From Candidatus Jacksonbacteria bacterium RIFCSPLOWO2_02_FULL_44_20 (GTDB taxonomy: Bacteria; Patescibacteriota; Patescibacteriia; UBA9629): a stretch of DNA of 39,890 bases. The notes under the pieces were generated by a model. The model did no database searches and was not told where the DNA came from. It saw nothing but the letters and a program-made list of their open reading frames with translations. The DNA is taken from the NCBI GenBank assembly GCA_001818155.1, contig MHJU01000038.1, forward strand, positions 1 through 39,890, in the 5' to 3' direction. Numbering within the stretch: the first letter of the stretch is position 1; each line of letters starts with the position of its first letter. This document shows positions 30,293 to 31,946 of the stretch, in pieces. A program made the translations under genes and the position numbers.

Positions 30293-30394
30293 CTAAGGGA
30301 TTTCCACTGCTCGTGTAACTAGTATCTCCAATTCAAAAAATTCTTTCGTCAGTTTCAGCGCGTGGGAGTGCGGACGCGTAAAAGGAAAACATGT
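30293..30394 (-). pseudogene. 3' fragment of a second NitT/TauT-type ABC ATPase gene
   Basis: Minus strand encodes PFTRPHSHALKLTKEFFELEILVTRAVEIP*; 53 nt (30333-30385) match 4458-4510 with 3 mismatches. Confidence 0.85.
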
Positions 30395-30401
30395 ATTTTA
30401 T

Positions 30402-30523
30402 ATAACGTCCCAGAATATGCGATGTTTGCCACTTGTATAATATGCCGAAGGCTCACCAGTGGCAAACATGGGCGGAGGCTTGCGGAGGTGCGGAACAAGC
30501 CGTAGCCGCATACACGCTGTTAT
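30402..30523 (-). repeat. attC-like nested dyad immediately 3' of ORF 30545-31276
   Basis: ATAAC/GTTAT outer arms; TATGCG/CGCATA; inner 12-bp ATGTTTGCCACT(30422-30433)/AGTGGCAAACAT(30458-30469). Confidence 0.5.
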
Positions 30524-30545
30524 GTGAAGTTTCATTTTTCAAATT
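30519..30545 (+). repeat. 27-bp inverted repeat, left copy
   Basis: GTTATGTGAAGTTTCATTTTTCAAATT; reverse complement of 31315-31341 with 2 mismatches. Confidence 0.9.
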
Positions 30546-31276
30546 TATTTTAACTCAAGATCATTAAGTGGTATGTAAGAATAATCATTTTCGGAGTTTA
30601 TTACTCCTTCCGGTGAACATTCTTTTGAATTAAAGAATACACCAGTTAATGCACAAAGGCCATTTTGGTATGAACAGTGCAAAGAAACCCAGGAATTATT
30701 TAATTTCGGACTGCCGTCTTCATCTGTTAGATAATAGTACCATACTCCATAATCTTTTCTATGTATGATACCCACAAATTTTAAATACAGATCATTTTTA
30801 TCTAAATTGCAATTTGTAGGTAGTTTACAAAAATCATCAACATAATACATTAAAGATTTTGCCATTTTGTTATCAGTTTCAATTATAGGAATAATTTTTA
30901 GAATGTCATCGGTGTTATTACTAATACATTGATATAGATTTGTGCTGGCGGTTAGATGAGGGGTAGTCAACACTTTATCTGATGTATTTTCAACTTTATA
31001 AATTTCACCAAAATTATAATACGATTCTTCCAATAGACTATTTTGTTGAAGGTTGGTAAATTGACTACTCGCTGTAATGTAATTTTGTATTTTTTGTTTT
31101 TGATCCTGAAATTCTTTATCGTCATATTCGTTCATCAAAACTTCATAAGCGTTAGTGACTTCCTTGAATTTATTCTCATTGGAAGTATTTTTTTCGCTGG
31201 ATTGTTGTGACAGCACAAATCCAAATATGATTATAATTACGACACATACCAGTAGGATGATTTTTGCTTTTTTCAT
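30545..31276 (-). CDS. Exported hypothetical protein, Cys-containing ectodomain
   Basis: MKKAKIILLVCVVIIIIFGFVLSQ N-terminal anchor; six Cys in the exported part; AT-rich. Confidence 0.75.
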   Translation of the reverse strand: MKKAKIILLVCVVIIIIFGFVLSQQSSEKNTSNENKFKEVTNAYEVLMNEYDDKEFQDQKQKIQNYITASSQFTNLQQNSLLEESYYNFGEIYKVENTSDKVLTTPHLTASTNLYQCISNNTDDILKIIPIIETDNKMAKSLMYYVDDFCKLPTNCNLDKNDLYLKFVGIIHRKDYGVWYYYLTDEDGSPKLNNSWVSLHCSYQNGLCALTGVFFNSKECSPEGVINSENDYSYIPLNDLELK

Positions 31277-31314
31277 AAATCTGGGTTAATTATAAATTTG
31301 CGGGTTTTTCTTAA

Positions 31315-31341
31315 AATTTGAAAAATGAAATTTCACTTAAC
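31315..31341 (-). repeat. 27-bp inverted repeat, right copy
   Basis: Minus strand GTTAAGTGAAATTTCATTTTTCAAATT; begins with GTTAAGT, which fits GTTRRRY. Confidence 0.9.
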
Positions 31342-31458
31342 TTATTTTTATACGAATTATTTTCGTAGTTGGATCTAAAATTTGTATAGTATACGAGCCT
31401 GTGTTACTTTGCAATAAGTATCAAACCTATCTGTACTTTAACAAACTATAAAGAAAGT

Positions 31459-31751
31459 ATGCAAATGCAATTAGAGCGAACAGAACAGGAATTACAAGTT
31501 AGAAACTATAGCCCCAAAACGGTAAAAAGCTATCTCTATGGGTTGCGGGAATATTTTGGTTTTAAAAAAATTAACTTGGAAATTTTGGACATTTTGTGCT
31601 TTCCAGAAAAGAAATTGAGGACATATTGCAGTCAACCCGGAATACAAAACATAAACTTTTATTATCGCTTGCCTATGGTGTAGGACTATGGGTCAGTGAA
31701 GTTACGGCATTGAGGGTGAGGGATATGGATTTAGAGGAAATGACTTATTAA
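31459..31751 (+). pseudogene. Decayed tyrosine recombinase/integrase
   Basis: Frame 1 QLERTEQELQVRNYSPKTVKSYLYGLREYFGFK (SAM-like N-terminal domain), then another frame VLSRKEIEDILQSTRNTKHKLLLSLAYGVGLWVSEVTALRVRDMDLEEMTY*; middle and C-terminal RHRY parts absent. Confidence 0.85.
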
Positions 31752-31866
31752 ACACACTCTAGAGATGCGCGCTCTTGCCTAAGTTTAATTTATGTGGTAT
31801 AGTCTTTGACACTTAATAATTGTTCTATAGAAAGTGGCCCTTCTTAAAGAAAGATGGGTGTGTGCT

Positions 31867-31904
31867 CTATACAGCAATTGTGAGATTAATAATTTGCTGT
31901 ATAG
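31867..31904. promoter_or_regulatory. 11-bp perfect inverted repeat upstream of DEAD-box gene
   Basis: CTATACAGCAA(31867-31877)...TTGCTGTATAG(31894-31904). Confidence 0.5.
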
Positions 31905-31946
31905 ATCCAAGATTTTTTTGGGTGTACACAGGAAATACACATATGT

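Follow-up and report, generated by a model that had tools for sequence, protein, structure and literature searches.

Two near-identical inverted repeats enclose a single ORF in the window, i.e. the whole 39,890-nucleotide stretch of DNA analysed here (contig MHJU01000038.1 of Candidatus Jacksonbacteria bacterium RIFCSPLOWO2_02_FULL_44_20). These repeats very probably mark the two ends, head and tail, of a single gene cassette belonging to a decayed integron-like element. Relatives in which the element is intact show that ultra-small Patescibacteria use an integron-like system, the recombinase of which is devoid of a domain thought essential for integrons. The strict definition of an integron requires this domain, I2, and these recombinases fall outside it; the system is therefore termed integron-like.

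Anatomy of the element in the Jacksonbacteria genome

The two arms of the inverted repeat (positions 30519-30546 and 31314-31341, 28 nt each, 767 nt apart) are complementary at 26 of 28 positions (93%), or at 25 of 27 over the 27 nt originally described. The near-identical repeats around a single exported ORF reported in the earlier note are real, and none is expected by chance. No third copy of an arm with up to three mismatches occurs in the window (0 expected from shuffles), and the same genome holds no further copy of the arm-bounded unit. The enclosed ORF (30545-31276, minus strand), the stop codon of which overlaps the left arm, encodes a 243-residue protein with an N-terminal membrane or signal helix (MKKAKIILLVCVVIIIIFGFVLS). 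This protein is an orphan: searches of 96 relatives and of genomic and viral contig collections return one weak 30% match only and no convincing relatives, profile matches (DnaJ, OB-fold and others) are weak and far under the cut-offs, and the structure prediction (pLDDT 46) was set aside.

Read along the minus strand, the element comprises the decayed recombinase gene, attI, the cassette head, the exported ORF, the tail, a 126-nt attC and the head of a truncated second cassette. The unit contains no transposase, as had been correctly claimed; the relevant enzyme is a broken intI-like tyrosine recombinase encoded just outside it (31459-31752, plus strand), in the same divergent place as the intact recombinases of relatives. 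This remnant spans two frames, is frameshifted and internally deleted, and lacks the C-terminal catalytic half, and its second piece matches the XerA and integron integrase families NF040815 (1e-8) and TIGR02249 (1.4e-8) over about 50 residues. The attI-like site (31330-31356, minus strand; TTCGTATAAAAATAA G|TTAAGTGAAAT, also TTCGTATAAAAATAA-GTTAAGTGAAAT) is assigned by similarity to the attI of relatives, agreeing with their reference at 23 of 27 positions, the best of 200 shuffles reaching 18; attI proper covers 31342-31356, and the cassette head runs from 31341 downward on the minus strand. The head corresponds to the right arm (31314-31341, minus strand), with a core, GTTAAGT, that fits GTTRRRY, and the tail to the left arm (30519-30546, minus strand), which contains the R'' box ACATAAC. 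The attC-like site (30400-30525, minus strand) is arranged as R''-L''-variable hairpins-L'-R', scores 110.9 bits with covariance model R1 and belongs to a family with pair covariation. Its L boxes are partly decayed, and its R'' box and R' box (GTTATAT) each depart once from the consensus. The 27-nt head of the truncated second cassette (30380-30406, minus strand; GTTATATAAAATACATGTTTTCCTTTT) differs by one base from the first-cassette head in L039.

In known integrons, a cassette excises as a circle, with the crossover at G|TT. If we combine this crossover with the head/tail test described below, the whole mobile cassette is predicted to extend from G|TT to G|TT between 31340 and 30406 on the minus strand, i.e. 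about 935 bp. The earlier note's suggestion of a unit that moves or once recombined as a whole is right in kind, the arms being the ends of an integron-type cassette, but its 823-bp bounds have to be widened, as the predicted mobile unit includes the outlying attC hairpin.

In this genome the system looks dead, a relic, because the window copy is the only attC reported by the covariance model, no strong integrase-like match is found, the recombinase is broken and the L boxes are degraded. An excised, circular, rearranged or relocated copy of the window cassette was sought among the 96 relatives and in the genomic and viral contig collections, and none was found. The sister genus provides no clean empty site of the kind the earlier note had proposed to look for: the counterparts of the flanking genes lie on different contigs, and the DEAD-box helicase, which in the window comes after the element, is preceded there by another gene, with no integron. 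As its leader is nonetheless similar, the element was either gained here or lost there. The helicase leaders (about 31780-31946 in the window, and L110) are alike, carry an inverted repeat (CTATACAGCAATT) and are possibly a regulatory 5' region. Rfam returns no match.

The attC family, its arrays and their recombinases

DNA searches of the 96 relatives report full-length relatives of the window attC, often several per contig. The attC alignment (A2, 19 sequences), from which the structure was drawn by eye, displays four helices with a total of 33 pairs; for 23 of these, both bases are replaced in at least one sequence, and none of 500 shuffles covaries as strongly. Paired cells amount to 87% of the alignment vs 27-46% with partners slid by 1-3 columns; this percentage leans toward the drawn structure because the latter came from the same sequences, whereas the two-sided changes are independent of that. 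The in situ window attC by itself has a single-strand fold that surpasses shuffled sequences only slightly (z -2.1 and -1.7), so that the case rests on the covariation within the family, which supports an attC able to fold as a hairpin with R and L boxes. Alignment A2 reveals no obvious extrahelical bases, which set strand choice in integrons, within the L boxes, and an asymmetric spacer and a fixed outer-stem mismatch are present.

Of 193 class genomes, 94 contain attC sites according to the covariance model (E<=0.01), as do 41 of 240 genomes of the phylum (E<=1e-4), mostly outside the class; Candidatus Peregrinibacteria (L119) is a named record with such sites. When applied to recombinase relatives from other phyla, the model returns two sites in Ca. 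Peregrinibacteria, which belong to the Patescibacteria, and elsewhere two weak matches only. All 60 neighbouring attC pairs within 8 kb lie on one strand, the ORF is on the attC strand in 59 of 66 cassettes, and the median cassette measures 832 bp. A strong TIGR02249 match occurs in 71 genomes, 59 of which also possess attC (Fisher p=1.4e-13, uncorrected for kinship). Of the 22 such recombinases that have a listed attC at a distance of 12 kb or less, 21 are divergent with the array upstream, and 17 of the 22 upstream regions match well an attI with a G|TT insertion point beside the recombinase gene. Many cassettes (upstream regions of L039, L045 and L090) have in common a leader made up of the head, CCTTTT, a GC hairpin and an A/T-rich run. 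The sequence of the GC hairpin varies between cassettes, and the leader, which may be a shared non-coding element, is also present in the truncated second cassette of the window (30340-30406, minus strand).

The array recombinases are Xer-like. All 20 full-length array-linked sequences retain the catalytic Arg, Lys, HxxR, His and Tyr, and the I2 region is absent from each of them, about 43 residues of three IntI references being missing. The best solved-structure match of the Peregrinibacteria enzyme model (pLDDT 88.9) is IntI4; no helix is predicted at the I2 position in this model, and the alignment of the array recombinase to IntI4 skips residues 187-240. NF040815 (XerA_Arch / integron integrase) is the best or near-best family for the array recombinases, but it also spans recombinases of many phyla without such attC found alongside. 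In the tree, 15 of the 20 array-linked recombinases fall in a supported clade of 20 (99/99), which also holds five recombinases from outside the set of arrays studied here; the remaining five array-linked enzymes branch elsewhere, and the three IntI references form a separate clade. According to published work, cassette capture requires the I2 region, which has been reported from nowhere else and by which IntI is recognised (PMC7790495, PMC4792948, PMC9668308); IntI1 needs it (PMC7790495). A member of the same superfamily (L061, 1477-2442, minus strand), next to which no attC was detected, is longer by about 30 residues close to where I2 would lie. The Gracilibacteria relative of the recombinase (L122, 208-1017, plus strand) is interrupted by in-frame stops when translated with table 11, in keeping with TGA encoding glycine there.

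Head/tail matching and the predicted circle

Heads and tails were compared over positions 8-22 in 66 clean cassettes delimited by successive attC matches. A cassette's own head agrees with its own tail at 8.59 of 15 positions, against 5.12 across attC (n=66) and 6.21 after permutation of the tails inside each array (sd 0.29; maximum over 2000 shuffles 7.20). At least 11 of 15 positions match in 32 of the 66 cassettes, and across attC in one only; a long repeat is thus missing from about half of the cassettes. In the 32 matching cassettes, the paired stretch extends to about position 26 (median; range 20-36) and contains a conserved mismatch at positions 10-11, the head reading GAAAT in 25 and the reverse-complement tail GATGT in 24. 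The repeats are private to each cassette, with 30 distinct sequence bodies in 32. The covariance model does not favour this result, since the flanks were left out of it. Six of the 10 cassettes adjoining attI, including that of the window, reach at least 12/15, and the window pair, 28 nt long, has the mismatch at position 11 only. The tails of L036, L037, L041 and L042 are of another type, in which CCCGA (reverse complement) directly adjoins the R'' box on its outer side; this type, without a long inverted repeat, accounts for 8 of the 66 clean cassettes.

An integrated attC carries the head of the next cassette, and a cassette's own head and tail would be adjacent only in the predicted circle, where they could pair. 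The bottom strand of the window attC folds with -41.1 kcal/mol when given the circle flanks vs -24.8 in situ. In the intact elements of relatives, a tyrosine recombinase gene lies divergent beside attI, followed by a one-way array of cassettes, each formed by an ORF and an attC with the capacity to form a hairpin. Cassettes would be taken up, or set free as circles, through recombination at G|TT; the circle would bring head and tail together and, through their pairing, add as much as about 26 bp to the attC stem, and this long stem may promote folding or capture. We tentatively propose, giving it slightly less than an even chance, that a natural class of integrons in Patescibacteria recombines hairpin attC sites via a Xer-like recombinase that never had I2. 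The strand would be chosen through two features, the asymmetry of the spacer and the constant AA/TG mismatch of a private 26-bp stem formed in the circle only.

Alternative readings, known systems and significance

The same features could be read as a dif-module-like unit, in which the ORF is bounded by two dif-like sites in inverse orientation, namely attI and the R''-L'' arm of attC, that Xer-type enzymes would use as double strands, with no folded strand. The attI and attC arms resemble E. coli dif, and dif modules (pdif sites of Acinetobacter plasmids) have both dif-like arms and Xer-like enzymes without I2, as here. In a dif module, a gene moved by the host XerC/XerD is enclosed by two complete, inversely oriented dif sites; here the inverted repeat by itself holds one recombinase arm only, and attI and the attC arm jointly look dif-like and inverse. 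This reading is nevertheless improbable, as a covarying hairpin is conserved in every attC, the head/tail pairing makes sense in a circle only, the arrays are one-way, and a dedicated linked recombinase is found instead of the host Xer. Dif modules and the Xer-exploiting CTX phage, the folded single strand of which mimics dif (PMC4792948, PMC7790495), differ from the present system, which has its own array-linked recombinase, tandem arrays, attC at the cassette 3' end and an attI. The dif-like arms still link it to Xer systems and dif modules (PMC6449649).

An invertible segment, flipped by recombination between the arms for phase variation, would agree with inverted repeats flanking one gene next to a recombinase remnant. 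Inversion, which the earlier note had also envisaged, is unsupported: none of the 60 attC pairs has opposite-strand neighbours, the cassette ORFs keep to the attC strand in all but 7 of 66 cases and the recombinase is broken, so that we hold this reading for highly unlikely. Slimmer still is the chance that a transposase acting in trans mobilised the unit as a miniature transposon, or as an insertion ending in inverted repeats. Its near-identical inverted ends and the lack of an internal transposase would fit, but no target-site duplication lies outside the arms, the ends are private to each cassette, the genome contains no second copy as a unit, and attI and attC adjoin the unit. The integron reading is favoured by the covarying hairpins, by arrays that run in one direction and by the recombinase linked to them. 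Points against it are the lack of I2, the weak in situ fold, the cassettes devoid of a long repeat, and the fact that no excised, circular or rearranged copy of the window cassette was found among the sequences searched.

Like integrons, the system associates a divergent recombinase gene and an attI with a one-way array of single-ORF cassettes, and its attC sites share RYYYAAC/GTTRRRY-like ends, a foldable hairpin, a G|TT core and complementary head and tail. It differs from them in the lack of the IntI-specific I2 region, in L boxes that pair without an evident extrahelical base, in a spacer of 1 nt instead of 4 nt, and in a head/tail pairing of about 26 nt with a fixed 2-nt mismatch, as compared with a total of 9-11 nt in classical cassettes (PMC2727003); one class 1 cassette included in the present analysis gives 12.

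No report of the system was found in the literature on integrons in Patescibacteria, Parcubacteria and CPR, a scope from which subscription papers and preprints were mostly left out, and an earlier description is possible. The I2 region is held to have turned a Xer-like enzyme into an integron integrase, and software recognises integrons by it (PMC4792948, PMC7790495, PMC9668308); a widespread integron-like system without I2 would go unnoticed or end up among orphan attC clusters. If the proposed mechanism is true, hairpin integrons devoid of I2 would represent what has been proposed as the ancestral condition of modern integrons, and their private repeats of fixed length may record how cassettes are made. 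The system would offer living material on the origin of integrons and the birth of cassettes, and would enable these ultra-small bacteria, which have few genes, to exchange genes by way of cassettes.
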